From the NCBI GenBank assembly GCA_944377745.1, contig CALWFV010000001.1:304863-368862 (forward strand): a stretch of 64,000 nucleotides of DNA, given 5' to 3'. The notes under the pieces are model-generated. The model saw only the letters and a list, made by a program, of their open reading frames with translations, did not search any database and had not been told where the DNA came from. This document shows, piece after piece, positions 39,040 through 56,545 of this stretch (position 1 is the first letter of the stretch; each line of letters starts with the position of its first letter). The position numbers were made by a program, and so were the translations under genes. Origin of the DNA: an uncultured Mediterraneibacter sp. Lineage in GTDB: Bacteria > Bacillota > Clostridia > Lachnospirales > Lachnospiraceae.

Positions 39040-39258
39040 ATGGGAGCGATAAGCGTTGAGAGAAATCCCAAGGGGATTGAGGGGATGCACTTTCAGAAGG
39101 AGTCCCCATAGGAAAAGCTCGTGTGCGTTATCCGTGGGAGAGTCTATGATGTTCCTCTTTATCTGAGAAAAGAAAGTTCTACATATGGACAGTGGTGCGG
39201 AACGGAACTGATTTTAAGTGATAGGAATCAGCTTAGGAGATGGATTTTTTCACTATAG
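39040..39258 (+). pseudogene. dTDP-4-dehydrorhamnose 3,5-epimerase remnant (rmlC/rfbC)
   Basis: After GAAGGAG the frame reads MGAISVERNPKGIEGMHFQK, then ESP, a TAG at 39109-39111, then EKLVCVIRGRVYDVPLYLRK and STYGQWCGTELILSDRN before a stop at 39256-39258. HFQK and the RGRVYDV--YLRK--STYGQW block are diagnostic of RmlC. The N-terminal start is fused directly to the middle of the enzyme, so internal DNA is lost, and the C-terminal half is absent. It lies 32 bp after the rmlD remnant. Confidence 0.85.
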
Positions 39259-39681
39259 TCCTGATCTCAGTTTAAGCAGCGTTTCGTTAAGAAGTGTTGA
39301 TGATGTGCTTTTTGTATATGGGAAATATACAATGTCAACTCCAACTTTTTTGAACTCTTCCTCATACTTATTCCATTTCTCTGTATTTTTCCAGTCATCA
39401 CCGACAAACATCACATTAAAATGATATTTTTGCCAAGCCCCCATCTTATTCATATCCTGCTGCGGTACTGCCTTATCCACATACCGTATCGCCTGAACGA
39501 TCTGAAGCCTTTCATCAAACGGAATCACCGCCCGTTTATGTTTATACTCCACCAGATCGTCACTGCTAACCCCCACAATCAAATAGTCACATTGCTCTTT
39601 CGCGCGCCGCAGCAGATTCAGATGACCAATATGAAACAGATCAAAAACTCCTGTGGTATACCCAATCTTATATTTTGCCAT
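39253..39681 (-). CDS. TagD-like cytidylyltransferase
   Basis: Nucleotidyltransferase of the glycerol-3-phosphate/choline/ethanolamine-phosphate cytidylyltransferase group. It has 142 residues. The catalytic HxGH motif is HIGH in TTGVFDLFHIGHLNLLRRAK, and the C-terminal STSSTLL resembles the family's ISTS motif. It would make a CDP-activated alcohol phosphate. The start at 39681 follows AGAGGAGGC. It is the last gene of the long glycan operon, 14 bp after the DUF362 gene, and meets the rmlC remnant tail to tail. Confidence 0.88.
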   Translation of the reverse strand: MAKYKIGYTTGVFDLFHIGHLNLLRRAKEQCDYLIVGVSSDDLVEYKHKRAVIPFDERLQIVQAIRYVDKAVPQQDMNKMGAWQKYHFNVMFVGDDWKNTEKWNKYEEEFKKVGVDIVYFPYTKSTSSTLLNETLLKLRSGL

Positions 39682-39695
39682 TATCAAAGCCTCCT

Positions 39696-40922
39696 CTAGG
39701 AAATCCACTTCTCATCTTCTCTAAGTTCTCTCCAATATTCCGACGGATAATAGTCAAGCTGCTTCCCTTTTATTTGACCCGCTGTACACATATTCATTTC
39801 ATCATTTGATACGATAATTTCTTCCAGACTAAGTTCATTCTTAAGGAAATAATTCAAATACGGAATCTTCTCAGGAATAAGTCCCATCAATTTCACTGTG
39901 GCAAGATCTGTCGCCAGAAGGTTCTCCCCTGCCGTCAACATTCTGGAGTTCTTTGCATGGACACAGAAAGGCCCTTTTCCCTCTCCCCCTATTATTCCAT
40001 CCACAATCGAAAAATATTTTCTTTTTTTCAACTCCATAGCGTGGTATAAATCCACAACCATCCGCCAGATCGTATCATTTCCATTCCAGGCTCCCCGTTC
40101 CTTTACTTTGGCAAACTGTCCTTTCAACCAGCTTGTAAAGTCCGGATACTCATCTCCGCCTACCGCCGGAAACCCGATACGCCAATGAACCAGATGATTC
40201 TTTTCGGTAATTGCTCCAACCAGACCTTTCAGATTAAGTGTTACCCCCACTTTATGGTGTGTTTTCATTTTCGGAAGAGAAATATACACGTCAGCATCAT
40301 AGATACTCTTGGAAAAGCCATAAAGTTGTATATCCCTAGTGTGAGCCTTTATCGTGTCTTTTCTTTGATCAAATACACCTCGAAACAGCAATGGATTCAC
40401 TCCATAAAGCATGGACTGTTTTCCAAGGTTTATGACTTCCTGCCCTAGCGGATCTCCCTTCGCCTTTGCCATTTTATTTTTATTCCCATAATCTTTCAGA
40501 TCACGGCAGATCAGCGGACGAAGATCAAGAATCTCGCAGGGAATGTCATATTTCTTTTCCAAGCGCCTTATATCTAGCAGCCGCATCAATTCTTCAAAAT
40601 CTGCATCAATGGATGGATTATCCCCTATGATAATCTTTCCTCTTCCTTTCAATGCCACCGCGACATAATCAGCCGTCACCTCTACCAGATTGGGATGGGT
40701 GATAACGCTGTATAAAGTATCCTTATGAGGGCACGATTTTCTCCAGCATGATGCGACCCAGTTCGGCTTGATAAACACTGTCATTCCCGGTTTTATCATC
40801 TCTCCAAGAGGATTTTCGGGATCGTAACCAAGCTGCCGGAACAGGGAATCCACTGCTCTTTTCACCTCGCTTATGCCGTAACTTTCAGCGTGTGCTGAAG
40901 CGACTCGATATCCGACATCCAT
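39696..40922 (-). CDS. DUF362 domain protein
   Basis: A 408-residue protein with the DUF362 pattern MTVFIKPNWV, GRGKIIIGDNPSIDADFEEL, SLPKMKTHHKVGVTLNLKGL and FSIVDGIIGGEGKGP. No ferredoxin-type Cys cluster is present, unlike some relatives. The biochemical role of the family is not settled, and members occur in biosynthetic clusters. It starts 2 bp after the preceding ligase gene, so it is coupled to it. Confidence 0.85.
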   Translation of the reverse strand: MDVGYRVASAHAESYGISEVKRAVDSLFRQLGYDPENPLGEMIKPGMTVFIKPNWVASCWRKSCPHKDTLYSVITHPNLVEVTADYVAVALKGRGKIIIGDNPSIDADFEELMRLLDIRRLEKKYDIPCEILDLRPLICRDLKDYGNKNKMAKAKGDPLGQEVINLGKQSMLYGVNPLLFRGVFDQRKDTIKAHTRDIQLYGFSKSIYDADVYISLPKMKTHHKVGVTLNLKGLVGAITEKNHLVHWRIGFPAVGGDEYPDFTSWLKGQFAKVKERGAWNGNDTIWRMVVDLYHAMELKKRKYFSIVDGIIGGEGKGPFCVHAKNSRMLTAGENLLATDLATVKLMGLIPEKIPYLNYFLKNELSLEEIIVSNDEMNMCTAGQIKGKQLDYYPSEYWRELREDEKWIS

Positions 40923-40924
40923 AC

Positions 40925-41971
40925 TTATTCAAGCACCCCCTCATCAATCAGATCCAAGAACCACTCCAGACAAAATACCAGCCATTTTTGATCCCCTGTC
41001 ATGGAAGATACGCAGCCTTTAATAAACTCTGGCCTTACCGGCCCCTTCCAGTTTTCCAACCACTGATCCATAGGACGCTTAAAAGGAATCTTTTCCGGCA
41101 CAGGCAGTTCCGGATATTTTCTTTGGAACAGTTCCCTGATAAGATATTTACTCTCTCCTCTCCGGACTCTTTCAATATCTAACGGCACTGATAAATGCAT
41201 TGCTTCATAAGGTTCCAATGATTTTACTCCTGCAAGAGACAGCGGATTCTCAAAGGACGGAATAGACGCAATGCCGTGAATATCTTCAAGGAAACGAAAA
41301 AAATCGATAGAATTCTCCCCTGTCCTGAACCGTTCATACACTGGAATAACCGACGCCGGCTCCCTCAACGCCCGTCTGGGATCTACAATCGTATAGCGCT
41401 CTGCTAATCCATTAAATGTCCAATCTTTTGACAGAAGTCCCGTAAGACCTCCAAACAAATAATCCGAACCGTTTCCCATGAGCAGCTTGTCTACCCCATC
41501 CCGTCTCGCTTTCTTTGCCGCAAGATATACCGCGCTTTCAATCTGATGTAACGGTGCTTTTCTTCTTTTCATCAGTCCTGGTCCTGTTTTAAGATAATCC
41601 TCCCACGTAACTTCCACCACATGAAAATCCAGTCCGTAATGCTCTGCATACACTGATGCCATAATCGTTTCATCCACTGCGTTTGGGGCAACAAACCTTA
41701 TGCTGTATGCTTTTGTACCTTTCGGCAAATAAGCTGCAATAATTGCCGAATCCATTCCACCGCTCAGAAGGATTCCAGTATTTTTATCAAAATATTCTTC
41801 CAGAAATTTCTGGATGACCAAATCAATATCATCAGCTGATGCAACTCCATGTATCTCTTTTACCGGTTTTTTGGGATAATCTGGAATCAGCGTATCTGTA
41901 AAACCTATATTCGGTGAAGCTATATACCGGAATGCCAAGTATGAACTCATACAAAATATTTTATCAATCAT
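40925..41971 (-). CDS. Asparagine-synthetase-like ATP-dependent ligase
   Basis: A 348-residue protein holding only the synthetase half of AsnB-type enzymes. The PP-loop reads GILLSGGMDSAIIAAYLP, followed by KAYSIRFVAPNAVDETIMAS and LLMGNGSDYLFGG. The N-terminal glutaminase is missing: the first ~85 residues have no Cys2 nucleophile. It probably adenylates a carboxylate and joins it to an amine or ammonia from another source. It overlaps the radical SAM gene by 8 bp. Confidence 0.87.
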   Translation of the reverse strand: MIDKIFCMSSYLAFRYIASPNIGFTDTLIPDYPKKPVKEIHGVASADDIDLVIQKFLEEYFDKNTGILLSGGMDSAIIAAYLPKGTKAYSIRFVAPNAVDETIMASVYAEHYGLDFHVVEVTWEDYLKTGPGLMKRRKAPLHQIESAVYLAAKKARRDGVDKLLMGNGSDYLFGGLTGLLSKDWTFNGLAERYTIVDPRRALREPASVIPVYERFRTGENSIDFFRFLEDIHGIASIPSFENPLSLAGVKSLEPYEAMHLSVPLDIERVRRGESKYLIRELFQRKYPELPVPEKIPFKRPMDQWLENWKGPVRPEFIKGCVSSMTGDQKWLVFCLEWFLDLIDEGVLE

Positions 41972-42818
41972 TAAAATCTTCCCATCTTTCTCCTGATTCT
42001 ATCTGAACCGCGGGCGCTGTCTGCATTGTCCCGCTTGTGCCATTGCAGTATCTGCACGCCTCCATGGCATGAGGGCTACTTATATATTTCTTCAGAGCGT
42101 ATCTAAAATTTTCTTCATCATACACTGGTAAATAATCCCCTTCGCCGTTATACCCCCCCCCGAAATTTTTGGGCTTAAATCCCATAATCCTTTGTGCAAC
42201 CAATGCTCGGGCACATCGTTCAATCCAACCATTTTCAAAAGTATAGCAGTTCTTGAAAAGACAGTTTTCGAAGCGAGACTCCACATCTTCCCCTGGATTG
42301 TATTTTCTCCCAAGATCAAACCATTTATCTTCTTCAGATACAAAATGATATATTTTGTATCTGATAGAGTTAAGCCTGAACCATTTCTGAACCTTTGCAG
42401 CATTATCTGAATTAACTGGATAGTGACTGATCCTTACAAGAAACTTTTCTCCCTGAAGATATTCTGGCTTTACTTTTGGTAAAACTGTACCATTTGTGGC
42501 AACAAGGCACTGCTTTATTTCCTGACTCTTTCTTACGTAATCAAGCAGTATCTCCAACTGGGGATATAGAAACGGTTCTCCTCCTTGTATCTGCAATGTC
42601 TGTATCCTGGCATACTTTGTAATGATATTCAACTTATCAATAATTTCTTCCACATCATAATGCATCATATCCTTTGGAGCATAAGGTGCAAAATTCCCGC
42701 AATCCCGACAGCGTAGATTACATGCCTGTCCAACTGATACGCAAAGGTAATCCATATTTATTTTCTCTATTTCCGTACAATTTTCGGCTTTACACATCTG
42801 ATCCATCTCCCTGTTCAA
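41964..42818 (-). CDS. Radical SAM protein with a G9 tract
   Basis: A 284-residue radical SAM enzyme. The 4Fe-4S ligands are Cys33, Cys37 and Cys40 in ACNLRCRDCGNF, followed by QIQGGEPFLYPQ (SAM binding). Additional Cys residues (ENCLFKNCYTF, ACRYCNGTSG) could bind a second cluster in a SPASM-like tail. Gly220-222 are encoded by nine consecutive G (42153-42161). The substrate is unknown. It overlaps the methyltransferase and ligase genes on both sides, suggesting tight coupling. Confidence 0.88.
   Translation of the reverse strand: MNREMDQMCKAENCTEIEKINMDYLCVSVGQACNLRCRDCGNFAPYAPKDMMHYDVEEIIDKLNIITKYARIQTLQIQGGEPFLYPQLEILLDYVRKSQEIKQCLVATNGTVLPKVKPEYLQGEKFLVRISHYPVNSDNAAKVQKWFRLNSIRYKIYHFVSEEDKWFDLGRKYNPGEDVESRFENCLFKNCYTFENGWIERCARALVAQRIMGFKPKNFGGGYNGEGDYLPVYDEENFRYALKKYISSPHAMEACRYCNGTSGTMQTAPAVQIESGERWEDFND
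42153..42161. repeat. Homopolymer C9/G9 inside the radical SAM gene
   Basis: Nine C on the plus strand (G on the coding strand). Gain or loss of one base would truncate the protein about 220 residues in and remove the C-terminal Cys motifs. Candidate slipped-strand phase-variation site. Confidence 0.8.
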
Positions 42819-43648
42819 TCTTTCGAGAATATCGCTGAGTCAGAGAAAAAGTCAGTTACATATGCCAGATTATACTTGTCCGCAAATTCTCGTACAGCTT
42901 CTTTGGCCTGAGGATACAAAATATTATAAAAATCATGAACTGCAATATAACCGCCTTTATTAAGACGGGGATAAAAATATTCAAGCCCTGCCAGAATCGG
43001 TTTATATAAATCGCAGTCAATATGTACAAATGCGAATTCATCCTCCATGCCATTCAGCGATTCCGGAAAATATCCTGCTTTAACCACACACTTTTCCGGA
43101 TAAAACATCCTATCCAACACTCGTTCAGCGTTTGAACGGAAATTATAAAACTCCAGAAATTCTGGTGTTAGAGCCTGAGACTCATCCTTATCTCTCTGAT
43201 CAAATCCACTAAATGTATCAAACAGATAGCATGTCCGGTCCGGAAAATAAAGATTGATATACTTTGCCGTATCACCATAATCTACACCCAGCTCTGCAAC
43301 GGCACCCGGTACCTTTCGACGCATTACTTCATTTACAAGACACTGATGCAGTATATGTTTTTCATAATCATAGGGATGCCTGAAATCCAATATCTTTTCA
43401 AAAGGAACTCCTCTTTTTACATATTCTCTCTGCTGTCCGTTGAAGTCCGGAATAGCAAGAATAATAAAGTCCACTTTCTCCGGAACATCCTCGTAGTCTT
43501 TATATAAAGGAATATTGTTTTTTTCCCTGTTCTTTTCACTTGCTCTGCGGTCAATAAATCCCACAACATCGAATATATACTCTATTCTTTTTGCAAGTTT
43601 TTCACCATAAATATCAGCGCCGTGAATTACAACTTTTCGTTTATCCAT
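42815..43648 (-). CDS. TylF/MycF-type sugar O-methyltransferase
   Basis: SAM-dependent methyltransferase of 277 residues. The N-terminal ~85 residues form a small Rossmann-like domain (VVIHGADIYGEKLAKRIEY). The methyltransferase proper starts near 110 with AELGVDYGDTAKYINLYFP, LFDTFSGFDQRDKDE, and the metal-binding FVHIDCDLYKPILAGLEYFY and GGYIAVHDFYN. TylF relatives methylate sugar hydroxyls in a Mg2+-dependent way. It overlaps the radical SAM gene by 4 bp. Confidence 0.87.
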   Translation of the reverse strand: MDKRKVVIHGADIYGEKLAKRIEYIFDVVGFIDRRASEKNREKNNIPLYKDYEDVPEKVDFIILAIPDFNGQQREYVKRGVPFEKILDFRHPYDYEKHILHQCLVNEVMRRKVPGAVAELGVDYGDTAKYINLYFPDRTCYLFDTFSGFDQRDKDESQALTPEFLEFYNFRSNAERVLDRMFYPEKCVVKAGYFPESLNGMEDEFAFVHIDCDLYKPILAGLEYFYPRLNKGGYIAVHDFYNILYPQAKEAVREFADKYNLAYVTDFFSDSAIFSKD

Positions 43649-43690
43649 AATATTTCTCTCTTTCTTTAACGGTCTCTGCCAAGAATCTTT

Positions 43691-44581
43691 CTATACTTTA
43701 ACTTGTTTCAGCCGATCATCCACCTGTATTTCTTCAAGCGGAAGAAGGACGCAGGACGACACGCTTACAGGCGGGAATTTCACCGGCTTCATATAATCAC
43801 CATACATTCTCTTCAGTGCCAGCTCACCATCCTTCATGCCCAAGAGTGAGTAGCCTTCAAACTCATATTCTTTCAATGTATTCAGCCATTCCCTTCTATA
43901 TCTCCAGTACCCCTTATATCCCCTTGAGGTAACGATCGGGACTGCAAGACACCGCAGGTAATGTGTAGGCTTTTTGTTCAGTCGCTTTATAAACCTGCAA
44001 TATGCTGCATTTTGCATCTCAAGCGGTATCAGGTCGAGCAATTTGTATAATACTCTGAAAACGGGATTATTCTCTGTCCGCTTTCCCACTTCTGACCACG
44101 CCGCCTTTCTGAACAAGAAAGCTATTACATTGCATACTATCTGTCCCGCTTTATGATCAGGCACATAGTCCAGAGGCATCACATCAATATAAACGCCCTG
44201 CTCATAGGACAGATGTTCTGTATTTGGACGTACAAAAGCAGTATTTCGCCTCCGAAGTTTCCCATACCCCCATCGGTATTCTCTGGTGCGGAACTGGTCC
44301 TGAAAATAAAATCGGTGCTTATCCAGATCGTTTTTACAGGCCTTTAAGAATTTTTCATAGTCCGCCCGCATCATTGCCACATCCGCATCGTCATCCCACG
44401 GCACAAATCCTTTGTGGCGCACAGCGCCCAAAAGGGTTCCTCCAATAATCGTATATCTGATTTTGTTCTTCCTGCAGATTCGGTCAAACTCTATTAATAA
44501 TTCCAACTCCGTCAGCTGGAGTATCCGCAGCTGATCAGGTATGTCGTCTGTAATTCTGGTTTCTCCGTTCTCAGCACCCAT
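43691..44581 (-). CDS. LicD family phosphotransferase
   Basis: Transfers a cytidylyl-activated phospho- or phosphono-compound (phosphocholine in pneumococci) onto a sugar. It has 296 residues. The diagnostic block is YTIIGGTLLGAVRHKGFVPW followed by DDDADVAM, which holds the metal-binding Asp residues. YIDVMPLDYVPD is the second family motif. In this operon with PEP mutase and two nucleotidyltransferases, the natural donor would be a CMP-phosphonate. It overlaps the preceding gene by 11 bp. Confidence 0.93.
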   Translation of the reverse strand: MGAENGETRITDDIPDQLRILQLTELELLIEFDRICRKNKIRYTIIGGTLLGAVRHKGFVPWDDDADVAMMRADYEKFLKACKNDLDKHRFYFQDQFRTREYRWGYGKLRRRNTAFVRPNTEHLSYEQGVYIDVMPLDYVPDHKAGQIVCNVIAFLFRKAAWSEVGKRTENNPVFRVLYKLLDLIPLEMQNAAYCRFIKRLNKKPTHYLRCLAVPIVTSRGYKGYWRYRREWLNTLKEYEFEGYSLLGMKDGELALKRMYGDYMKPVKFPPVSVSSCVLLPLEEIQVDDRLKQVKV

Positions 44582-45665
44582 GCTTTTCCCTCAATCTTTC
44601 TGCAATCTTCTCCGCAAATCCCTCGCAGTCCTCAAGGGCCAACGTCTTCGGATAATCAATCCCGAAAACATCCTTCATCTTCCGGATGACTGCATCCGTG
44701 AAGTGGATCCCGTTCTCATCCGTCTTTTCGATCCCATCACAGCTCAGGCTCTGCCTGTTCACTCTTGTCATCTCTTCTTCCGTGAACACGGTCTCATCCA
44801 GACTCATCTCTCCATGGCTAAACAGCACTGGATATCCTCCAGTCTTTCCAAACGGTCCCGGCACATGGAACTTATATACTCTGTCACTTTTGTCCAGCAG
44901 ATATCGTATGATCATCACCACGTCAGATGCGATCATGATGTTCCTCTCCGGCCCTGATGCTGTCGGTTCCGCGCATCTGCGGAAGATTTCCTCATCTTTT
45001 ACTTCCGTATTTCCTCTGATATTAAGGAGATATTCCGAGCCTTTTGCCGTCCCTTCCTTGGAGATATAGGTATTGACGTAGTGGGAGCCGACAAACGTGA
45101 TATCCGCCTCTTTTGCAGGCGTTCCGGTCAGGCTCTCATATGCCCGGGCAATCCTCGGGATGAGGTGATTGAGATTACCGGCACTCGTATAAGGGGCCAG
45201 TCCGTATGCGGCGAGCAGCGGTGATACCGCGTCGCCATAGCTCGTATTGATGACTTTTGTCTCTATCCCAGACTGCTTTACCGCTTTCATAAGCTTTGCC
45301 ACAAGGACTGCTGACATGGGCGTCCAAACTCCGTATCCGATTCCATTCGGATAGGAAAACTCTCCATACTTGAATCCTTTCATATATCGCCCTGTATATG
45401 CGGTCACATCCGGACCTTCAGAAGCGAGCACCCCACTGAGCCGCTCTGTATCATTCACATCGCATGCTATATATTTGATCTTAGGATAATTTCCGAAGAT
45501 GCCTGCTGACACACGGGTGAGATTGATCCGTTTCTCCGCTTCTTCCTCTTTCGTCCTTGAAACTACTGTGATCTCGCAGTCTGCAAGTTCCGGGAGGCGC
45601 ACCAGCATATCAAGCACATATTTACCCGTACTCCCATATCCTATGATCATTATCTTATCAGCCAT
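44571..45665 (-). CDS. Saccharopine-dehydrogenase-like NAD(P)-binding protein
   Basis: A 364-residue protein with an N-terminal Rossmann motif IMIIGYGSTGKYVLDMLVRL and a second domain typical of the saccharopine reductase/dehydrogenase fold. The substrate is unknown. Family members form or cleave secondary amines or reduce ketones, so a step on a phosphonate-derived aldehyde or a sugar is possible. It overlaps the nucleotidyltransferase upstream by 16 bp and licD downstream by 11 bp. Confidence 0.8.
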   Translation of the reverse strand: MADKIMIIGYGSTGKYVLDMLVRLPELADCEITVVSRTKEEEAEKRINLTRVSAGIFGNYPKIKYIACDVNDTERLSGVLASEGPDVTAYTGRYMKGFKYGEFSYPNGIGYGVWTPMSAVLVAKLMKAVKQSGIETKVINTSYGDAVSPLLAAYGLAPYTSAGNLNHLIPRIARAYESLTGTPAKEADITFVGSHYVNTYISKEGTAKGSEYLLNIRGNTEVKDEEIFRRCAEPTASGPERNIMIASDVVMIIRYLLDKSDRVYKFHVPGPFGKTGGYPVLFSHGEMSLDETVFTEEEMTRVNRQSLSCDGIEKTDENGIHFTDAVIRKMKDVFGIDYPKTLALEDCEGFAEKIAERLREKHGC

Positions 45666-46435
45666 GATGTATTACCTGCCTTCCTCAAATCTTCCTGTGT
45701 ATTCAGATTGATCCACCCATTTGGCTCATCTGAAAATACAGGCTCTATCTCTTCTCCCAACATATTGATGGAATATACTCCGGAATGAAGCATCGGCTTC
45801 CCGCTCCGATCCGCCTCTTCCCGGTATTCTCTGAGCAGTTCCCTGAGCCTTCCAAGCGCTTCACCCGCAAACAGCCAGAGCTGCATGCTGTCCCCGATCA
45901 CAGACTCGCCCTCTGCCAGTTTTGGCATCACACCGCTGTGGGATGTGTCGTATTCATACCTGAAGATCTTCCCTGCTCTTCCCACCGCGATCACGCTTCT
46001 GGCAGGATCTGCATAGCCCTTATCTCTTACCAGCGACACTGCTTCTTCCTCCTTGCGAACAATCTGTTCGATCGACCTTCTGCTTAACAGAGAGTCGCCT
46101 TCCGCAACGATGACCCTGTCCGCCTTCTCTGTCTGGTCATCCATCATCCCACATGCAAGGGAGTAATTACATCCGTGCGTGTCATAATATATATTTTCTG
46201 TAAACCTTATCCTGTCAGATCTGTCATAACCGGACAGCGCTTTTTTGACGGACTCTGAAGCATAGCCGACAACAACTGTGATCCTGTCCACCCCGGCGTC
46301 CAACAGTGCTGATGCAGTATACTGTATGGGGGTGATTCCTGCAATGGAGACCGCGCATTTGTTCTGTCCTTCCGGAAGTCCAAGTCTGCTTCCAATCCCC
46401 GCGCAGAGAATTACTGCCGCTGTTTTACTATCCAA
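45650..46435 (-). CDS. Nucleotidyltransferase (LicC/MobA-like)
   Basis: Makes an NDP- or CMP-activated donor. It has 261 residues. The nucleotide motif AAVILCAGIGSRLGLPEGQN is intact, including the Arg. Metal-binding residues lie in IVAEGDSLL and the late EPNGWINLNTQEDL. Small size suggests a LicC-type CTP:phospho-alcohol enzyme rather than a sugar pyrophosphorylase. It overlaps both neighbours (25 and 16 bp). Confidence 0.87.
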   Translation of the reverse strand: MDSKTAAVILCAGIGSRLGLPEGQNKCAVSIAGITPIQYTASALLDAGVDRITVVVGYASESVKKALSGYDRSDRIRFTENIYYDTHGCNYSLACGMMDDQTEKADRVIVAEGDSLLSRRSIEQIVRKEEEAVSLVRDKGYADPARSVIAVGRAGKIFRYEYDTSHSGVMPKLAEGESVIGDSMQLWLFAGEALGRLRELLREYREEADRSGKPMLHSGVYSINMLGEEIEPVFSDEPNGWINLNTQEDLRKAGNTSWLIR

Positions 46436-47370: not shown

Positions 47371-47380
47371 ATCCATCCTC

Positions 47381-49134: not shown

Positions 49135-50723
49135 CCTATCTCCCCCGCCTTCATCAGATCATTCAATGAATTAATGTCTACCACAGCCTCCTGGGAGGAT
49201 ACTATCACTCCCAGAGTAAGGCCATCCTCGAGCGCCCGGACTATAAAGTTCGCCATGTGCACCGATTCCAAATCCAGCTCTCTTAACAGAGCCGCGGCCG
49301 CATCATAGTTTTTTATCATCATGAGCCCGCTGAAATATACAATGTCTCCAGATGCATCCGGCTCTTTTTCGGCACACACTTCAGTCACGGTCAGGTCAGT
49401 ATCTTCCCCGAACACATCCAGCTTTTTGTTCAGCTTCAATGCATACCCGGACTTGATATAATCCTCTTTTACGCAGACAAGGATAAAATCAGCGTCTGAC
49501 TGCTCTTCTGAATAATCCAGGATAGACCGCAGCAGATATCTCTTAAAAAACACATCCCCGTACAACATCAGATACGGCTGCTTCATCTTCGGTGCAGCCA
49601 GTGCAAGAGAATATACTGCGTTTGTATCCTTCCATTTATCATTATCAATGACTTTTATATCATCAGTCTGAATCTCTTCACTCTTGTATCCCCGGACCAC
49701 AGTGATGTCCGACACCCCTGCCGACGCGAGCACACTCAGCTGATGATCCAGGATCCTCTTCCCGTTCACCTTCAGCAGTGCTTTTGGCTTGGAAAAGTCA
49801 AGTGCCCCCGGCCCCCCCGCCGCCAGGATCACCGCGCTCACATTCGGATACATGGGCAGATACTTCTTTTCCATCTCAAGATATTCCTCATTTTTCTGGA
49901 GGCGGAACAGCTCAGATACCGGCGCGATCATCCCTTCAGCGTTTGTAATACAGCCATCGTCATATATCCTCTGACAGATTGCCTGCATGGCAGTGACGCA
50001 GGCTCTCACATTCTGGTTCGCCCATATGATCCCCCGTACCCGTTTATCTCTGGTCAGATGGCTGACTGGCACAGTATAATACTTTGTCGGCACGATAAAG
50101 ACCGGAACCTGCCTGTCAAATGCCGAAAGGAAATCATCAATGTCCTTCGATGTGGACCTTTTGGAATGTACCAGTATCGCATCCGCCCCCGCATCCAGGT
50201 ACATCTGTGCTCGCCTCACAGCGTCTTCTACCCCTGCCCCGACGATCAACGATTCCAATCGTGCCACAACCGTAAAGTCCTTCGTTCTCTGGGCTTCTTT
50301 CATCGCCCGGATCTTTCCCGCGAACTCCTGGGGATCCGCAAGGGCGTCCAGTTTTGTCTCCAAGAAAGAATTGGTCTTCGGGAACTTCTTATCCTCAATG
50401 CAGACCGCGGCAATCCCAAGCTGTTCCAGCTTCTGTAGCAGACGGCAGGCATTATTGAAGTTGCCGTATCCCGTATCCCCGTCCACCAGAATAGGAAGAT
50501 CAGTAGCATCGTTCATATATTCCAGCACATCCAGGAGCTGTGTGTAGGATATCTCGTTATTATCTCTCACACCCAGGGATGCGGTGATTGACAGTCCGCT
50601 GGCCCAGACAGCCTGGAACCCTGCCTCCTCAACGATCTTTGCGGACAGCCCGTCATGGGCCTCCATCAGGAAAAAATGCCCTTGTGTATTCAGCAGTTCA
50701 CGAAACATTTTAGCCTTATTCAT
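49131..50723 (-). CDS. aepX: Phosphoenolpyruvate mutase fused to a nucleotidyltransferase
   Basis: Makes phosphonopyruvate, the entry of nearly all phosphonate pathways. Residues 1-~285 are the mutase, with LVDGDTGYGNFNNACRL and the signature EDKKFPKTNSF at 110-120, which separates mutases from isocitrate-lyase relatives. Residues ~294-530 are a nucleotidyltransferase (AVILAAGGPGALDFSKPKAL), related to PntC-type enzymes that put CMP on 2-aminoethylphosphonate. Its first motif lacks the usual Arg of GxGxR. G7 and G5 runs occur there (near 49805-49817). Coupled to the genes on both sides. Confidence 0.94.
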   Translation of the reverse strand: MNKAKMFRELLNTQGHFFLMEAHDGLSAKIVEEAGFQAVWASGLSITASLGVRDNNEISYTQLLDVLEYMNDATDLPILVDGDTGYGNFNNACRLLQKLEQLGIAAVCIEDKKFPKTNSFLETKLDALADPQEFAGKIRAMKEAQRTKDFTVVARLESLIVGAGVEDAVRRAQMYLDAGADAILVHSKRSTSKDIDDFLSAFDRQVPVFIVPTKYYTVPVSHLTRDKRVRGIIWANQNVRACVTAMQAICQRIYDDGCITNAEGMIAPVSELFRLQKNEEYLEMEKKYLPMYPNVSAVILAAGGPGALDFSKPKALLKVNGKRILDHQLSVLASAGVSDITVVRGYKSEEIQTDDIKVIDNDKWKDTNAVYSLALAAPKMKQPYLMLYGDVFFKRYLLRSILDYSEEQSDADFILVCVKEDYIKSGYALKLNKKLDVFGEDTDLTVTEVCAEKEPDASGDIVYFSGLMMIKNYDAAAALLRELDLESVHMANFIVRALEDGLTLGVIVSSQEAVVDINSLNDLMKAGEIG

Positions 50724-52335
50724 TTCTCGCTCTCCTTAAAAGTGTCACTGTATATTCATGGATCTTCTCTCCCGCCGTTCCATCAGCGTTAGCGTACAAT
50801 TTCCGGAATTTAGCCGACTGTTCATCACTGTATTCAAGAATTATGTCCAAATAACCTAAAAAATCCACTATGCTCAGGCATTCCCCCATCGTCTCTCCCG
50901 CCGCTTCTGACAGAACATAGCTGTTATAATAATCCTTACTGACAAAAGTTTCCACAGACTTTCTCACTCCTTCTGCGCTCCCTTTCTTCTTCGGCTCTTT
51001 CCCTGCATTGGAAGTATTCTGGAGCAGTACCGGTTTCCCCAGGAACTCGAACAATAATTCCACAGAACTCAAGTCGCCATAGCAGACGTCCGACCACGCA
51101 ACCGCACGATTTATATCCGGCGTATCGTCATAGATTCCCCACCCTTCAGATCTGTACTCTCGCAGGATCTCTTCATACTCTCTAAAAAGCTGAGGACGCA
51201 TGGAGTGCAGTGTCTGAGCCAGAAGCGGGTGCGGACGCAGCCACAGGATGACGTCCTTCTGGTTTCTGAAAAGTTCAAGTGCGCTGCGTATTTTTTTCAG
51301 ATAACCCTCTCCGTTATCTTCCCTTGTATTCAATGCCCCATAGATCGAAAGGTTGTAGAGCACGATCTTTTGATCCGTCTTTCTTTGATCCACAGTTTTC
51401 TTCCATTCAGCCGGCAGCGGGTAATCTGACTCACCGGTATGCACGAGCTTGTCCATCTTCGGTGACCCCAGCGCGATGATCTTTTCTCTTGCCGTCCGAA
51501 GAGTCAGCCCTTCCATATCATTTTCATTCAGAAAACTTTCTATGTAACAGTTTCTGATATTTTCCGACTGGACAAATGTAAGATCAGAATAGAGAACTCC
51601 CGGTGTAGTCCCCATGCCTTTGTCCGGGACTTCCATATGTACAAAATAAGGTACATAGACAAGACAGTCCGTCAGGTCTCTCAGCCTTCCCGCATAAAAA
51701 TCCGGGTGCACGCTGGTCACCAGGTTTCTGTCATCGTAGGGATTCATAATATAAATGATATCGGGCCTTCGCATTTCCACATTATATTTCTTCCAGTCTA
51801 CCAATTCATAGCTGTCCGGATAATATCCCTCCGCCTCATAGTGCATCTCCCCGAAAGATCCGTTGGGATTTCTGTCATAGTAGGGAATCGGGATAAAGTA
51901 CGCGTCACATGACGGGTCTTCTTTAGCCGCAAAATAGATACTCTCCAGACAGTCACTCATACTTGCCTTATAACAGAAGAACGCGATCTCCAGCCGCACC
52001 GGAACCGTCATTCTGACACTGTTGTCCACTGCCGTCAGCATTTTTTTCAGCAGACGGTACACCCCAGATGGATTCTGCTCTTCCTCAGACGCCAGTTCTT
52101 CGTAAAGCCTGTAGCAGGTCTCACAATATTCTTCAATCGGATGGATCGAAGACGCGTCTTCTCCTTCCAACTGTTCAATCAGATTCCCCATCTGGATAGC
52201 CCCCTCCTGTGCATCGCTTAAGAGACGCATGACATTCTCTCTGTTTCCGTCTGCAAGCTGCTTCCTGATCTCTTCATGGACCTTCCCAATCAGGGCTATC
52301 GTTTCTTCAATCTGCTTTTTCTGGACTTTTCGCAT
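50716..52335 (-). CDS. CDP-glycerol glycerophosphotransferase-like (TagF-type) protein
   Basis: A 539-residue soluble protein. Residues 1-110 are helical and charged. The rest follows the TagF/TagB GT-B pattern: LVYVPYFVHMEVPDKGMG, SDLTFVQSENIRNCYIES, IIALGSPKMDKL, VILWLRPHPLL and SDVCYGDLSSVELLFEFLGK. Relatives transfer glycerol- or ribitol-phosphate from CDP carriers. Here it might transfer a phosphonate-alcohol or phospho-alcohol to the glycan. It overlaps both neighbours (29 and 8 bp) and has a GGAGGAG ribosome binding site. Confidence 0.82.
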   Translation of the reverse strand: MRKVQKKQIEETIALIGKVHEEIRKQLADGNRENVMRLLSDAQEGAIQMGNLIEQLEGEDASSIHPIEEYCETCYRLYEELASEEEQNPSGVYRLLKKMLTAVDNSVRMTVPVRLEIAFFCYKASMSDCLESIYFAAKEDPSCDAYFIPIPYYDRNPNGSFGEMHYEAEGYYPDSYELVDWKKYNVEMRRPDIIYIMNPYDDRNLVTSVHPDFYAGRLRDLTDCLVYVPYFVHMEVPDKGMGTTPGVLYSDLTFVQSENIRNCYIESFLNENDMEGLTLRTAREKIIALGSPKMDKLVHTGESDYPLPAEWKKTVDQRKTDQKIVLYNLSIYGALNTREDNGEGYLKKIRSALELFRNQKDVILWLRPHPLLAQTLHSMRPQLFREYEEILREYRSEGWGIYDDTPDINRAVAWSDVCYGDLSSVELLFEFLGKPVLLQNTSNAGKEPKKKGSAEGVRKSVETFVSKDYYNSYVLSEAAGETMGECLSIVDFLGYLDIILEYSDEQSAKFRKLYANADGTAGEKIHEYTVTLLRRARNE

Positions 52336-53698
52336 GTGCTCTCATCTCCTCCGCTTTTTTGTGTATTGCTTCCTGCACCGCCCTACGCTGACCTTCCGGC
52401 ATCGCGTCAAACACTCTTTTCTCCAAGGCGGGAAATGCTGTCAGCATCGCCCCTTTCAGAATTGTCATCTGGTCTTTCAAGCTGGAAACATTATATAACT
52501 GAGACAGGATATCCCAAGTACCTGCTGCCGTCTCTGCTTCTCCCTGTTCACCTTTTAGAAGATTCATCAGCATGATCAGTGGATACGTATAATATTTATC
52601 CACACCAAGAGCCATCACAGCGTATCGGACAGCCTCATCACGGTTATCTAAATGACTGCAACAGTCTGCAAGCTGCATATAGAATACCTTCAGATCAACC
52701 GACATATATACAGGTAAAAGTCCATTATAACGCTTCATTTTTTCAAGTGCTGCTTCTAAATGCCCCTTTGCCTCAGCATATTCTTTTTTTTGATACAACC
52801 ATGCGCCAAAATACCCTTCACTGTCGGGATGATCCGTCTGCATTTTTACAGTTTTTTGATACAGTTCCCTCACAATTTCTTCCTGTTGGATATCAAATTT
52901 CCGTGTGTAAAGAATAATCAGCATTGCCACCGATCGAATTGTATGGATTCTCTCTCCTTTTTCCTCTCCGCATTCCATAGCCCGATAAAAATACTTCTTG
53001 GCTTCTTCCTGTTTTCCCTCAGCCATGTAGGCGTCTCCCAGATAGGCAAGAGTTTCCACATTGTCACGATCAACCAGCAGTTCTTTCTCCAGCAGTTCTA
53101 TATTACGTTGTGTCTTTCCCGTTTCTTCGTATGCTTCTTTCGTGTAGCCGGTATGGATGATAACCAAATCTTCTCTTGCGTCAAATCCGTTATAAGATGT
53201 GTAATCTGAAAATTTCAGCACTTCATGAATCTTGTTATGGTACTTCAGCCTTGAATCTCTCCGAAAAATCCTGTCCTGATGACCGACCGCCCCAATCTTT
53301 CCATCCTCCCCTATGTTTACAAGGCGAGATGTAATAACATATACTTTTTTTTCATTTTGCTGAATATCCTCTATCTGGCGAATTAAGGGAATCAGCTTTT
53401 TTGCACTTTCTTTCGAAAAATACTCATCTGCATCCAGAAAGGCAATCCAGTCTCCGCCCGCTTGTTCTATGGCGTAATTCTTAGCTGCTGAAAAATCATT
53501 TATCCATTTAAAATGATATACCTTCGCCCCCATCTCTTCTGCGATCTCTACTGTACGGTCCGTACTTCCTGTATCCACCACAATCTGCTCGGATACAATC
53601 CCACGTCCCCATGAGAGCGCACGCCTGATATTCTTCTCCTCATTTTTTACAATCATACACTGAGAGATCTTTATCCGATTAGTCTTGCTCTTCTTCAT
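52307..53698 (-). CDS. Family 2 glycosyltransferase with TPR repeats
   Basis: A 463-residue cytosolic enzyme. Residues 10-110 form the GT-A core with ISQCMIVKNEEKNIRRALSW, VVDTGSTDRTVEIAEEMGA and the DxD-containing FLDADEYF. From ~190 on, helical pairs of TPR type follow (ETLAYLGDAYMAEGKQEEAK, SEGYFGAWLYQKKEYAEAKG). GT2-TPR proteins of this layout O- or S-glycosylate proteins such as flagellin and peptides. It is a clear paralogue of the enzyme at 53752-55086. Confidence 0.9.
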   Translation of the reverse strand: MKKSKTNRIKISQCMIVKNEEKNIRRALSWGRGIVSEQIVVDTGSTDRTVEIAEEMGAKVYHFKWINDFSAAKNYAIEQAGGDWIAFLDADEYFSKESAKKLIPLIRQIEDIQQNEKKVYVITSRLVNIGEDGKIGAVGHQDRIFRRDSRLKYHNKIHEVLKFSDYTSYNGFDAREDLVIIHTGYTKEAYEETGKTQRNIELLEKELLVDRDNVETLAYLGDAYMAEGKQEEAKKYFYRAMECGEEKGERIHTIRSVAMLIILYTRKFDIQQEEIVRELYQKTVKMQTDHPDSEGYFGAWLYQKKEYAEAKGHLEAALEKMKRYNGLLPVYMSVDLKVFYMQLADCCSHLDNRDEAVRYAVMALGVDKYYTYPLIMLMNLLKGEQGEAETAAGTWDILSQLYNVSSLKDQMTILKGAMLTAFPALEKRVFDAMPEGQRRAVQEAIHKKAEEMRAHAKSPEKAD

Positions 53699-53751
53699 TT
53701 GTGAAAAAGAATCCCCTTTCTATCTGTTAATTACTTAGTACACACATTACT

Positions 53752-55086
53752 TTACTGCTTCCTGCCACCCAACTTCTTCTGGAGATTGTCCGGCAGGAGT
53801 TTTAATATACGTTGTTCCAACATCAAATCCCCCACAATCCTGACACATTTAAAGAGAAAAAGCTGATCTCTCACTTCTCTCATATTATAAATTCCATCCA
53901 AAAAAGCCCATGTTTCTTCTATTTTCTCTCTTTGCGGATCTTTCTTTTTAAATAGCAGCAAAACCTCACACACCACCTTCTCCAAATATCGGTTCAAACG
54001 GAGTGCAAGAATACAGTAATAGATCTCTTCCTCCGGCATTTTCAACTGTTGACAAAGCCCTGCCATCCAGACATAAGTCTTTTCCAGATTCCCACTGAGA
54101 TAGATCACATCATCGCCTGTATAAAAATCCAGCAACTCCAATGCCCTTTTAATCTCTTGATAAGCTTCTTCAAAGTATCCCCGCTTCATACAATATAGGC
54201 CTAGAAAGAAATACACGTCTGGATTATCAGTCTCCGGATACCCCACCTGCCTCGCCACCCCTTTTACTTCTTGAGTTGATTCTGCCAGCCCAGGGTGATT
54301 CATATAAAGCTTCAAAAGATTTTTTCCCGCATTCATGTACCCCCATCTGCTTATAGCGGCAAATGCCCTCCCCTCTAGTGCTTTTAAATAGGCTTTTTTT
54401 GCCTCCTGCACCTTATCCAGCCCGGCAAATGCATCTCCAAGGTAAGACCATGCGCTGTAGTCTTCCGGATTTTCTCTGATTTCCGTCTTTAGCAGTTCAA
54501 TGTTTCTCTGCCACTTCCCCCTGGTTCTCATAACAGAGGCTGCATATCCTGTATGAAAGATTGACAGTCTTTTCTGTTCATCCCAGCAGACCATGTCCTC
54601 CCCTCCGAAAAGTCTGATCTGCTCATGAATCTTCCCATGATATCGAATTTCGGGAATATTTCGGAAAATCCTGTCCTGCACAGATACGGAAAATGGTTTC
54701 CCATCTTCCTCAAGCTGTACCCAGGAACAACGGATAAAGTGAGGACGCTCAATTCCTTTCATTTTCTCTATCTGTTCTAAGGTCTTCATCAGCTTCTCTA
54801 CATCTTCGCCTGACAAATATTCGTCTGCGTCCAAAAAAGCGATCCAGTCGCCTGACGCCTGATCTATCGCATAGTTCTTTGCCGCGGAAAAGTCATCGCA
54901 CCATTTAAAGCGATACACTTTTGCTCCCATTTCCTTTGCAATCTCAGCAGTCCTGTCTGTACTTCCCGTGTCCACAACGATCTGCTCAAAAGCAGCATTC
55001 CTCGCCCACGACAGGGCCTGACGGATATTCTCTTCCTCATTTTTTACGATCATGCATTGGGACAGCTTCATCATCTTCTTCCCCAT
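53752..55086 (-). CDS. Family 2 glycosyltransferase with TPR repeats
   Basis: A 444-residue paralogue of the neighbouring GT2-TPR enzyme with the same motifs: LSQCMIVKNEEENIRQALSW, VVDTGSTDRTAEIAKEMGA, FSAAKNYAIDQASGDWIAFL and DADEYL. C-terminal TPR units include YSAWSYLGDAFAGLDKVQEA. It is the first gene after the flagellin terminator, 104 bp beyond it, which makes flagellin the likely acceptor. The two GTs may act in sequence or on different sites. Confidence 0.9.
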   Translation of the reverse strand: MGKKMMKLSQCMIVKNEEENIRQALSWARNAAFEQIVVDTGSTDRTAEIAKEMGAKVYRFKWCDDFSAAKNYAIDQASGDWIAFLDADEYLSGEDVEKLMKTLEQIEKMKGIERPHFIRCSWVQLEEDGKPFSVSVQDRIFRNIPEIRYHGKIHEQIRLFGGEDMVCWDEQKRLSIFHTGYAASVMRTRGKWQRNIELLKTEIRENPEDYSAWSYLGDAFAGLDKVQEAKKAYLKALEGRAFAAISRWGYMNAGKNLLKLYMNHPGLAESTQEVKGVARQVGYPETDNPDVYFFLGLYCMKRGYFEEAYQEIKRALELLDFYTGDDVIYLSGNLEKTYVWMAGLCQQLKMPEEEIYYCILALRLNRYLEKVVCEVLLLFKKKDPQREKIEETWAFLDGIYNMREVRDQLFLFKCVRIVGDLMLEQRILKLLPDNLQKKLGGRKQ

Positions 55087-55189
55087 TGATAAGTCGCACT
55101 CCTTTTTCTTTCATATAGTCACCCGGCCAACAGCCTTCATCAAACTCAGCCCTCCGGCTTTTCTTGTGGGAAATAATGGAATTTCCCAT

Positions 55190-55222
55190 AAGAAAAACCC
55201 CCATCCCATGATGGGATGGGAG
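55190..55222 (-). terminator. Terminator after flagellin
   Basis: On the minus strand CCCATCCCAT and ATGGGATGGG form a perfect stem followed by GGTTTTTCTT. A second smaller hairpin (GGGAAAT with ATTTCCC) follows directly. Confidence 0.85.
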
Positions 55223-55238
55223 TCTGAAAAATTCCCGC

Positions 55239-56060
55239 TTACTGTAATAACTGAAGAACGCCCTGCGGTATCGTATTTGCCTGTGCAAGCATCGCCTGAG
55301 AAGCTTGTACCAGGATGTTGTTCTTCGTGTAAGCCATCATCTCGTTTGCCATATCTACGTCACGGATACGGCTCTCTGCTGCTGTGATGTTCTCTGTCTG
55401 TACACTCAGGTTGTTGATCGTGTGCTCCAGACGATTCTGGATCGCGCCGAGGTTACCACGGATAGAAGACACATAATTGATAGCATTTTTAATACTAACA
55501 ATAGCGGCGCTTGCACCTGCCTGATCCTCGACACTAATACCAGTAAGCGTCATAGCAGCTGCGGTAGTTGCTGAGAGCGTAAAAGTGAGCTGATTGAAAT
55601 CATCCGCCGTATCACCAATCTGAAGTGTCATTGAAGCATTACCACCACTCAGCAACTCAATTCCATTGAAATTTGTAGATTCAGCGATACGATCAATTTC
55701 CTCAACCAGAGCATCAACCTCAGCCTGAATATTTGCACGGTCTACATCATCATCATATGTTCCGTTTGCAGACTGTGTAGCCAGCTCTACCATACGGTTC
55801 AGCATGGAGTGAACCTCTGTCAGAGCACCCTCTGCTGTCTGTACAAGAGAAATCGCGTCGTTCGCGTTCTTCTGAGCTGTCTCAAGACCTGTGATCTGCG
55901 CACGCATTTTCTCAGAAATAGCAAGACCTGCCGCATCATCACCCGCACGGTTGATTGCGTAACCAGAGGAAAGCTTCTCCAGGTTCTTTGACAGAGCGCT
56001 GTTGTTTGTTGTTAAGTTACGATAAGAGTTAAGTGCTGATATATTATGCTGAATTCTCAT
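55239..56060 (-). CDS. fliC: Flagellin
   Basis: Filament subunit, 273 residues. It has the conserved D0/D1 ends: MRIQHNISALNSYRNLTTNN, LSSGYAINRAGDDAAGLAIS at the N terminus, and ISAAESRIRDVDMANEMMAY-like (here TAAESRIRDVDMANEMMAYT), ILVQASQAMLAQANTIPQGV at the C terminus. The variable centre (about residues 140-195) is short and rich in Thr, Ser and Ala, offering O-glycosylation sites. csrA lies 142 bp upstream and the GT2-TPR genes downstream. Confidence 0.97.
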   Translation of the reverse strand: MRIQHNISALNSYRNLTTNNSALSKNLEKLSSGYAINRAGDDAAGLAISEKMRAQITGLETAQKNANDAISLVQTAEGALTEVHSMLNRMVELATQSANGTYDDDVDRANIQAEVDALVEEIDRIAESTNFNGIELLSGGNASMTLQIGDTADDFNQLTFTLSATTAAAMTLTGISVEDQAGASAAIVSIKNAINYVSSIRGNLGAIQNRLEHTINNLSVQTENITAAESRIRDVDMANEMMAYTKNNILVQASQAMLAQANTIPQGVLQLLQ

Positions 56061-56069
56061 TAATGTTTA

Positions 56070-56104
56070 CCTCCTTGGTAGTTCCGAAGCCATCCTTTGC
56101 TTCG
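56070..56104 (-). promoter_or_regulatory. Candidate CsrA-binding leader of flagellin mRNA
   Basis: In the flagellin leader a hairpin CGAAGC-AAAGGATG-GCTTCG (56085-56104) exposes GGA in its loop. The ribosome binding site CCAAGGAGG (56070-56078) contains a second GGA. Two GGA sites, one over the ribosome binding site, is the layout by which CsrA represses hag in B. subtilis. Confidence 0.6.
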
Positions 56105-56202
56105 TGTTAATTATTTTATTTTTTTCACACACCTTGTCTCTCTGTCTCTCTGTTGCTTCTCCGCGGATCCTGTGTGCACTGACGGATCAAGAGACGAGAC
56201 GG

Positions 56203-56445
56203 CTATTTTTGATCCAGCTTCTCCATTGTCTGCCTTTTTTTCCTGCTCTTTACATAGGAGTTCTGAATCCAGTCCGGGGCGGGATTAGTTCTTTCATAAA
56301 CTTCTCCTCTCAAGACGTCGATATCCCTGGGTGCGTCCACCACAAGGCGCAGTGTCCCGTCAATCTCAGCGACCTGAATCACAATCTCGCGGGAGCCGTC
56401 TTTGAGTACAATGTATTCACCTGAGTTTCTTCCAAGTGTCAGCAT
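56203..56445 (-). CDS. csrA: Translational regulator CsrA
   Basis: RNA-binding repressor, 80 residues from MLTLGRNSGEYIVLKDGSRE with IVIQVAEIDGTLRLVVDAPR and DIDVLRGEVYERT, the CsrA fold. A C-terminal tail (SYVKSRKKRQTMEKLDQK) is longer than in E. coli. The start at 56445 follows AAAGGGG. In the same frame, ATGs at 56529 and 56523 follow CAGGAG and would add 26-28 residues, an unusual extension. It lies directly upstream of flagellin, its classical target in Firmicutes. No fliW is seen. Confidence 0.9.
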   Translation of the reverse strand: MLTLGRNSGEYIVLKDGSREIVIQVAEIDGTLRLVVDAPRDIDVLRGEVYERTNPAPDWIQNSYVKSRKKRQTMEKLDQK

Positions 56446-56545
56446 TATTTTGACCCCTTTCTGTATCTGACAGGATCTGCTGAGCGCAGTGCAGAAGCAG
56501 AATTTTCTCACAATTCTCTTCATTATCATCTCCTGTCTAATAACA

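Follow-up and report, generated by a model that had tools for sequence, protein, structure and literature searches.

An uncultured Mediterraneibacter sp. carries, within the 64,000-nt stretch of its genome analyzed here (the window), an island of 17 genes on the minus strand, running from csrA through a cytidylyltransferase (39253-56445). Its gene families give good support for phosphonate synthesis followed by attachment to a glycan of the cell surface. The flagellin encoded near the start of the island is the best single guess for the acceptor, held with moderate confidence on the basis of the linkage of a TagF-like transferase gene to flagellin, the GT2-TPR glycosyltransferase genes behind other flagellins of the same genome, and the flagellin-linked PEP mutase (PepM) genes at three places of the PepM tree. 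On balance we lean toward a flagellin-modification island of the Clostridioides difficile type A kind, carrying a phosphonate that its own enzymes would make. We infer the chemistry of the whole pathway and the acceptor from the gene families, their order and recurrence, and two statistical ties, one between the TagF-like gene and flagellin, the other between a malate dehydrogenase (MDH)-like gene and PepM.

Organization of the island

Gene families were assigned by HMM search, with scores compared to Pfam and TIGR cut-offs. The island opens with csrA, encoding a translational regulator (56203-56445; PF02599 at 50.8 bits, scored over a longer ORF, 56203-56529, the start at 56445 being set from the sequence), and a 273-aa flagellin, the likely acceptor (55239-56060; PF00669, 156 bits; PF00700, 103 bits). 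Two GT2-TPR glycosyltransferases follow, a (53752-55086; PF00535, 83.3 bits, with TPR matches) and b (52307-53698; PF00535, 73.1 bits), the TPR matches of both lying mostly under the Pfam cut-offs, and then the TagF-like transferase (50716-52335). Next come PepM fused to a LicC/MobA-like nucleotidyltransferase (49131-50723), a phosphonopyruvate decarboxylase-like protein (Ppd; 48073-49134), a YfcE-like metallophosphoesterase (47381-48076; PF12850, 77.8 bits), an NDP-sugar epimerase/dehydratase-type SDR (46411-47370; PF01370, 151 bits; the ORF opens at 47463 and the start is probably Met32), a second, LicC-like nucleotidyltransferase of the NTP_transf_3 family (45650-46435; PF12804, 56.4 bits), an MDH/LDH-fold oxidoreductase (44571-45665), and a LicD-family phosphotransferase (43691-44581; PF04991, 139 bits). 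The last five genes encode a TylF-type methyltransferase (42815-43648; PF05711, 56.3 bits), a radical SAM enzyme (41964-42818; PF04055, 46.6 bits), an Asn-synthetase-like protein (40925-41971; PF00733 only, 82.6 bits, no glutaminase domain being matched), a DUF362 protein (39696-40922; PF04015, 86.2 bits), and a TagD-like cytidylyltransferase (39253-39708; PF01467, 77.7 bits; TIGR01518, 98.6 bits, below the cut-off of 165.4). Rfam and tRNA scans over the whole window gave no matches.

On recheck, the order, strand, and coordinates given in an earlier note on this DNA hold, and the island is confirmed as real. Its inventory was short of one gene, the oxidoreductase between the second nucleotidyltransferase and LicD, and its description of nearly all genes as overlapping or a few bases apart fits from the second GT2 gene to the island end (gaps of -29 to +42 bases) but not upstream, where 142 bases separate csrA from flagellin, 152 flagellin from GT2, and 53 the two GT2 genes. 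A putative terminator, a consensus-matching hairpin with a 14-pair stem and a T tail, lies on the same strand just 3' of the flagellin stop (55195-55225). Given these gaps and the hairpin, flagellin and the rest need not share one transcript. This hairpin and a GC mosaic (41% in the last five genes, 50.5% in the PepM block) are compatible with another, rather unlikely reading, in which the phosphonate decorates a different surface polymer, such as a capsule or teichoic-like glycan serving as substrate of LicD and TagF, and the flagellin-GT2 pair is an adjoining, separately transcribed unit. Contiguous same-strand arrangements in the window and in relatives, described below, argue against such a separation, as does the linkage of TagF to flagellin.

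Linkage of the TagF-like transferase and GT2-TPR genes to flagellin

The TagF-like protein passes the PF04464 gathering score weakly (25.3 versus 22.1 bits), and three of five aligned homologues match this family at an E value of 0.01. A PDB sequence search at the same E value gave no match, and the structure model (pLDDT 56.7) was too poor for use. A match to this protein is present in 74 genomes. From 92 places, 40 (39 genomes, Lachnospiraceae) were picked by score and length of the carrying contig; at nine of them the gene lies within 10 kb of flagellin, against 0.84 expected, a number reached in none of 200,000 simulations, the comparison being of this one sample with random placement rather than with other gene families. 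A 67-bit flagellin match in the sample, at L220, was not counted as flagellin. Eight of the nine flagellin-near genes are downstream of flagellin on its strand. The TagF-like gene is thus tied to flagellin in Lachnospiraceae beyond chance. The genome of the window encodes five flagellins at an E value of 1e-15, and GT2-TPR genes come after two of the four others (one is broken). With such paralogues present, glycosyltransferase a is likely a flagellin O-glycosyltransferase.

Phosphonate synthesis and the probable cargo

PepM scores 334.7 bits with TIGR02320 (curated cut-off, 319.55) and carries the EDKxxxxxNS motif as EDKKFPKTNS. A pseudogene is ruled out by its full length and intact motif, and an isocitrate-lyase relative by TIGR02320 being the best match. 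TIGR03297 is by far the best family for the decarboxylase (E value of 1.9e-75), which falls under the curated cut-off (254 versus 312.5 bits), as do those of its clade mates G402 and G400, the former of which has a PhnW-like gene in its cluster; hence the label Ppd-like. The PepM-fused nucleotidyltransferase domain (PF12804, 51.3 bits) departs in sequence from the PntC loop GxG(T/S)Rx4-8PK, with PK kept and Arg absent in all seven aligned clade sequences (the alignment omits L043, which the tree shows to be almost identical to L042). In the separate nucleotidyltransferase, GIGSR is present and NK replaces PK, a possible variant of the PntC/LicC loop. The nearest solved chains to the SDR are UDP-glucuronate decarboxylase and UDP-glucose 4-epimerase.

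The oxidoreductase is provisionally placed by its predicted structure (AlphaFold pLDDT 82), for which the best Foldseek E value to MDH/LDH is 1e-10, with TM scores of 0.50 to 0.59 by query length among the matches listed; the best PDB sequence match reaches an E value of only 0.12. H195 and R171, the presumed equivalents of the MDH/LDH catalytic residues, are invariant in seven aligned rows. The MDH-like gene was found in 5 of 397 genomes, all five also PepM positive. Its profile was built in part from PepM-adjacent loci, and the two carriers outside the profile alone give a P value of 0.012. It is thus statistically tied to PepM.

Genome-wide searches of the 11 genomes that carry the cassette core gave no PhnW transaminase match above 50 bits; the product may therefore be something other than 2-aminoethylphosphonate (AEP). 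The best genome-wide match, 47 bits against a cut-off of 400.8, sets the island apart from AEP-type pnt clusters, defined by PepM, Ppd, and AEP transaminase. Of the 43 other PepM stretches, 16 contain a PhnW-like gene (Fisher P = 0.013, comparing genome-wide with local searches; with local stretches only, 0/4 versus 16/43, P = 0.18). This absence leaves room for some other transaminase. The cargo is probably a tailored phosphonate other than AEP. A more specific and tentative proposal is that the quartet of phosphoesterase, SDR, nucleotidyltransferase, and MDH-fold protein forms a previously undescribed branch of phosphonate synthesis that takes the place of PhnW transamination, its product being a hydroxylated, non-amino phosphonate (for example, of the phosphonolactate or hydroxyethylphosphonate type). 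This product would be loaded onto flagellin in the window, by the TagF-like enzyme or LicD, and in a few of its relatives, and would be the first phosphonate of flagella known together with the genes that make it. Equally conceivable, and compatible with flagellin as the acceptor, is that the cargo is common AEP and the transaminase sits unrecognized elsewhere in the genome. A transaminase outside the PhnW model can be imagined, and AEP is the sole phosphonate that we found reported on any flagellin, that of C. difficile, in the text available from PMC8861647; the PhnW distribution speaks against this product.

In the pathway that we favor, GT2-TPR enzymes would place one or more sugars on flagellin Ser/Thr. 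PepM would form phosphonopyruvate and Ppd phosphonoacetaldehyde, which the MDH-fold oxidoreductase, SDR, phosphoesterase, and second nucleotidyltransferase might turn into a tailored phosphonate. The fused or the separate nucleotidyltransferase would make the CMP ester, and the TagF-like enzyme, LicD, or both would transfer the phosphonate to the flagellin glycan, with further tailoring possible by the methyltransferase, radical SAM, Asn-synthetase-like, and DUF362 proteins. The last four resemble natural-product tailoring enzymes and could instead build a diffusible, secreted phosphonate, flagellin adjacency being incidental. We consider this improbable: for the 10 other module genomes, the stretches read contain LicD in 8 and the TagF-like gene in 6, and bacterial phosphonate capacity is mostly assigned to cell-surface tailoring in the available text of PMC6697681.

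The cassette and PepM-flagellin linkage in relatives

The earlier note had called for comparing PepM neighborhoods in relatives. In the part of the family covered, flagellin-linked cases exist and its proposal is not refuted; PepM generally shows no excess near flagellin. Among all 48 places outside the window's genome, in 47 stretches (some ending at contig ends), linkage occurs in one or two stretches against 0.76 expected, and flagellin linkage as a general PepM property is rejected. The second case, L092, is a 98-bit flagellin-like match roughly 7 kb away from PepM; it lies on the other strand, is separated from PepM by further ORFs, and was regarded as coincidental. Neighborhood counts are minima, since the ORF picker drops ORFs overlapping longer ones (the PepM genes of L101 and L103 were missed, for example).

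Flagellin-linked PepM genes fall at three separate points of the PepM tree. One is the pair formed by the window and L045, where the order flagellin-GT2-GT2-TagF-PepM-phosphoesterase-epimerase-nucleotidyltransferase-MDH-like-LicD recurs without Ppd at the equivalent spot; nearly the same order in a second genome suggests more than chance. In L045, the neighboring flagellin is 5' truncated and Ppd lies elsewhere on the contig. The next is the second PepM of the L045 genome, after a complete flagellin-GT2-GT2-TagF-LicD series, on a contig that also carries flgK and a gene resembling flgL some 8 kb off; L149/L150 hold contiguous, same-strand flagellin-GT2-GT2-TagF-LicD-PepM. The third, L100, belongs to a genome (G177) outside the 74 TagF-positive ones and has a glycosyltransferase of a different family between its flagellins, indicating that some flagellin-PepM islands do without TagF and GT2-TPR.

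A flagellar role is not exclusive. For eight of the 11 core genomes, the stretches read are free of flagellin, and G189 lacks any flagellin match genome-wide; both findings favor another polymer as the acceptor. The earlier note's wording of a phosphonate-decorated glycan on flagellin or another polymer stands for synthesis and surface-glycan transfer, as judged by gene families, with flagellin the best guess among acceptors. The surroundings of L106 look capsule-like, which also fits another polymer; this label, like integrase-like ones, was given by eye from first ORF residues rather than by family search. In Clostridium porci, the complete cassette, with the last five genes, is located apart from the flagellins. 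Further points against the flagellar reading are this location, the hairpin, the truncated L045 flagellin and the lack of a Ppd within the L045 cassette, the Arg-less fused loop, and the PepM count. The same-genus genome G308 was considered as an empty-site control and proved unusable, having no PepM, MDH-like, TagF-like, or flagellin match.

Comparison with known systems

The earlier note knew of no described flagellar phosphonate, a statement contradicted by AEP on C. difficile FliC (PMC8861647); a literature search at title and abstract level found no other report. That genome is given, in the text available, as lacking pepM, with the source of AEP unknown. The islands of the window and, separately, of its relatives are candidate gene sets to make and attach such a phosphonate, so that the question can be tested in bacteria other than C. 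difficile, such as the named strain C. porci WCA-389-WT-23D1 for the cassette itself. The MDH-fold quartet would mark a route to phosphonates that dispenses with the usual transaminase.

In the fosfomycin route, a CMP ester is formed on the Fom1 product and hydrolyzed later by FomD. The nucleotidyltransferase-PepM fusion is shared with Fom1 (CyTase-PepM), and CMP-ester processing with a later phosphoesterase step may be too (Fom1 and FomD as described in the available text of PMC6697681); the domain families differ, and the genes described here belong to a surface island that includes LicD and TagF. With the pnt clusters, as presented in that text, the island shares the PepM-PF12804 nucleotidyltransferase fusion, Ppd, and a LicD-type transferase; it differs in having no detected AEP transaminase, in the extra quartet, and in flagellin linkage, the word stem "flagell" being absent from the main text of PMC6697681.

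The closest likeness is to C. difficile type A (cd0240-cd0244), for which the published model has a LicC-like CTase and a TagF-like transferase acting onto a sugar on FliC (PMC10714395, available text). Shared features are the flagellin glycosyltransferase, LicC-like cytidylyltransferase, TagF-like transferase, methyltransferase, and a phosphorus-linked decoration, predicted for the window, a phosphonate having actually been observed in C. difficile (PMC8861647, PMC10714395). In the window, flagellin, glycosyltransferase, LicC-like CTase (PepM fused or separate), and TagF-like transferase lie side by side, a correspondence to CD0240-CD0244 at the level of gene families. The main type A cargo, according to the portions available, is phospho-N-methylthreonine and the genome is pepM negative, whereas the island described here encodes PepM, Ppd, and a tailoring module of its own.

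Organization of the flagellin-linked island

The island (39253-56445, minus strand) runs from csrA and flagellin through two GT2-TPR glycosyltransferases, a TagF-like transferase, a PEP mutase (PepM)-nucleotidyltransferase fusion, a decarboxylase resembling phosphonopyruvate decarboxylase (Ppd), a metallophosphoesterase, an NDP-sugar SDR, a separate nucleotidyltransferase, an oxidoreductase, and LicD to five further genes, encoding a TylF methyltransferase, a radical SAM protein, an Asn-synthetase-like protein, a DUF362 protein, and a cytidylyltransferase. Families assigned by profile agree with the gene order and common strand given in the earlier note, which had omitted the oxidoreductase. 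The tight packing it described holds from the second GT2 gene onward (gaps of -29 to +42 bases) and not for flagellin (142 and 152 bases), which has a terminator-like hairpin of 14 pairs on its 3' side. GC content is mosaic: the last five genes have 41%, the GT2 genes 43%, the PepM block 50.5%, and positions 1-39000 51%.

Directly after csrA, the flagellin leader (56061-56130, minus strand) contains a hairpin, GAAGC-AAAGGATG-GCTTC, with GGA in its loop, and a second hairpin enclosing AAGGAGG. The folding z score is -3.0, with 1 of 200 shuffles equally stable, and the leader resembles a CsrA-type control site.

Flagellin searches of the 3.67-Mb genome gave five strong matches and one weaker one above the Pfam cutoff; PepM and TagF-like genes each matched once at the thresholds used. 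A further csrA-flagellin-GT2-TPR unit lies on its contig C3 (L087:13576-17193), with the GT2-TPR frame broken into pieces.

Predicted phosphonate synthesis and activation

The window PepM scores above the curated cutoff, and its closest solved structures by sequence are the PEP mutase entries 1m1b and 1s2u. It carries EDKKFPKTNS, a motif type that sets PepM apart from other isocitrate-lyase relatives (PMC6697681). The decarboxylase falls under the cutoff of the Ppd model, yet no other family matches comparably; a Ppd match occurs in all 12 tested genomes with the window PepM type or the phosphoesterase-SDR-nucleotidyltransferase-oxidoreductase quartet (the module), over the cutoff in 9. The gene families support C-P bond formation, Ppd-like decarboxylation, nucleotidyltransferase action, transfer by LicD or TagF, and sugar attachment by GT2 enzymes, and the phosphonate may be activated as a CMP ester. 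In 7/7 aligned clade sequences, the fused nucleotidyltransferase retains the lysine of PK and lacks the loop arginine; the separate enzyme keeps GxGSR with NK instead of PK; either could be the working CTase.

PhnW, the transaminase toward 2-aminoethylphosphonate (2-AEP), has a best match of 47 bits in the window's genome, against a cutoff of 400.8, and no match above 50 bits genome-wide in the 11 module genomes. A PhnW-like protein of 257 bits is present in G402, a genome without the module, and by hand count 16 of 43 other Lachnospiraceae PepM stretches include a gene resembling PhnW. This difference gives a one-sided Fisher P of 0.013 when genome-wide searches are set against local ones, and a P of 0.18 with local stretches on both sides (0/4 versus 16/43). 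Since many module-free PepM genes also have no PhnW nearby, its absence from module genomes is only suggestive in pointing away from the usual transaminase route.

The fold of the oxidoreductase (364 amino acids) is predicted with fair confidence from seven sequences, the best model having a pLDDT of 82 and the remaining four 50 to 67. Each of the 50 Foldseek matches listed is to a malate or lactate dehydrogenase (best E value, 1e-10; TM score by query length, 0.50 to 0.59). Its profile, built with 3 of the 5 carriers among 397 Lachnospiraceae genomes, finds all 5 within the 46 PepM-positive genomes (P = 1.7e-5; P = 0.012 for the remaining two alone). Decarboxylation, transamination, or a 2-hydroxyacid dehydrogenase yielding phosphonolactate can each draw phosphonopyruvate onward (PMC12871164); because this last route exists, a reductase role in the phosphonate route is plausible for the oxidoreductase, and the adjoining decarboxylase makes several substrates possible.

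Distribution of the cassette

A contig scan yielded 16 loci, seven of which (L041 to L047) fall with the window in a PepM clade of eight sequences (support, 1.0); six of the seven, all except L046, have both the module and a TagF-like gene. The Clostridium porci locus (L041) holds the full set, the last cytidylyltransferase included. Neither flagellin nor GT2-TPR genes were matched in the stretches read for it; C. porci flagellins lie elsewhere in the genome. Directly upstream of the TagF-like gene, L041:5634-8158 and L207:10878-13448 show an integrase-looking ORF and a TnpB-like protein, the latter's Cas12f1-like TNB domain being demonstrated in L041 alone. Several cassette genes in Clostridia bacterium UC5.1-1D2 (L047:11590-20055) are split by frame breaks, through decay or sequencing error.

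The L045 locus of genome G401 is ordered flagellin-GT2-GT2-TagF-PepM-module-LicD and has no Ppd of its own. Its contig (C75) also carries flgK and a flgL-like gene and, ~8 kb on, a second island with a complete flagellin, GT2, GT2, TagF, LicD, and a cytidylyltransferase-PepM fusion with EDKMGLKKNS, followed further on by Ppd; the nonulosonic acid genes NeuB, NeuC, and LegC are present as well. The flagellin of the L045 cassette, the second of G401 (L045:2654-4542), is missing its N-terminal part (the first 67 domain positions) and abuts an opposite-strand integrase-looking ORF. L100, in genome G177, comprises two flagellins with a glycosyltransferase of another family between them, PepM, two LicD genes, the module, and a third LicD; a search of G177 for TagF-like genes gave no match at the chosen threshold. 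The PepM tree puts the window/L045 pair, the second G401 PepM, and L100 in three separate places.

Flagellin as candidate acceptor

Around 48 other PepM places, flagellin was found in 1 of 47 stretches (2 with a doubtful match), with 0.76 expected. In the stretches read, some of them truncated at contig ends, no flagellin appeared for 8 of the 11 module genomes, and G189 has the module with no flagellin match. As PepM is rarely near flagellin and module genomes are often without one nearby, the cassette looks like a portable surface-decoration unit, here placed in a flagellin-modification slot.

The TagF-like gene occurs at 92 places in 74 of the 397 genomes. Forty of these places were fetched with ~10 kb on either side where the contig allowed, and a flagellin scoring 100 bits or more was found at 9, in 8 cases upstream of the TagF-like gene and on its strand. 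Given the number of flagellins and the size of the genomes, chance would give 0.84 such places, and a count of 9 did not arise in any of 200,000 simulations. Eight stretches (L208, L209, L211, L212, L213, L218, L223, and L224) show flagellin and then a TagF-like gene on the same strand with no PepM match, some also matching LicD, GT2, or cytidylyltransferase; these may be Lachnospiraceae loci for type A-like modification of flagellin.

A literature search, mostly outside subscription journals, found no paper naming a PepM island beside flagellin. The earlier note's statement that no flagellar phosphonate had been described is contradicted by 2-AEP detected on the Clostridioides difficile flagellin glycan, as reported in PMC8861647. 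The PepM and module distribution argues against flagellin as the acceptor, and the TagF-flagellin linkage and the C. difficile model argue for it; with moderate confidence, flagellin is our best guess. In that published model (PMC10714395), the flagellin sugar receives phosphothreonine through the action of CD0242, a LicC-like CTase, and CD0244, a TagF-like transferase; a TagF-like gene is likewise present in the window island.
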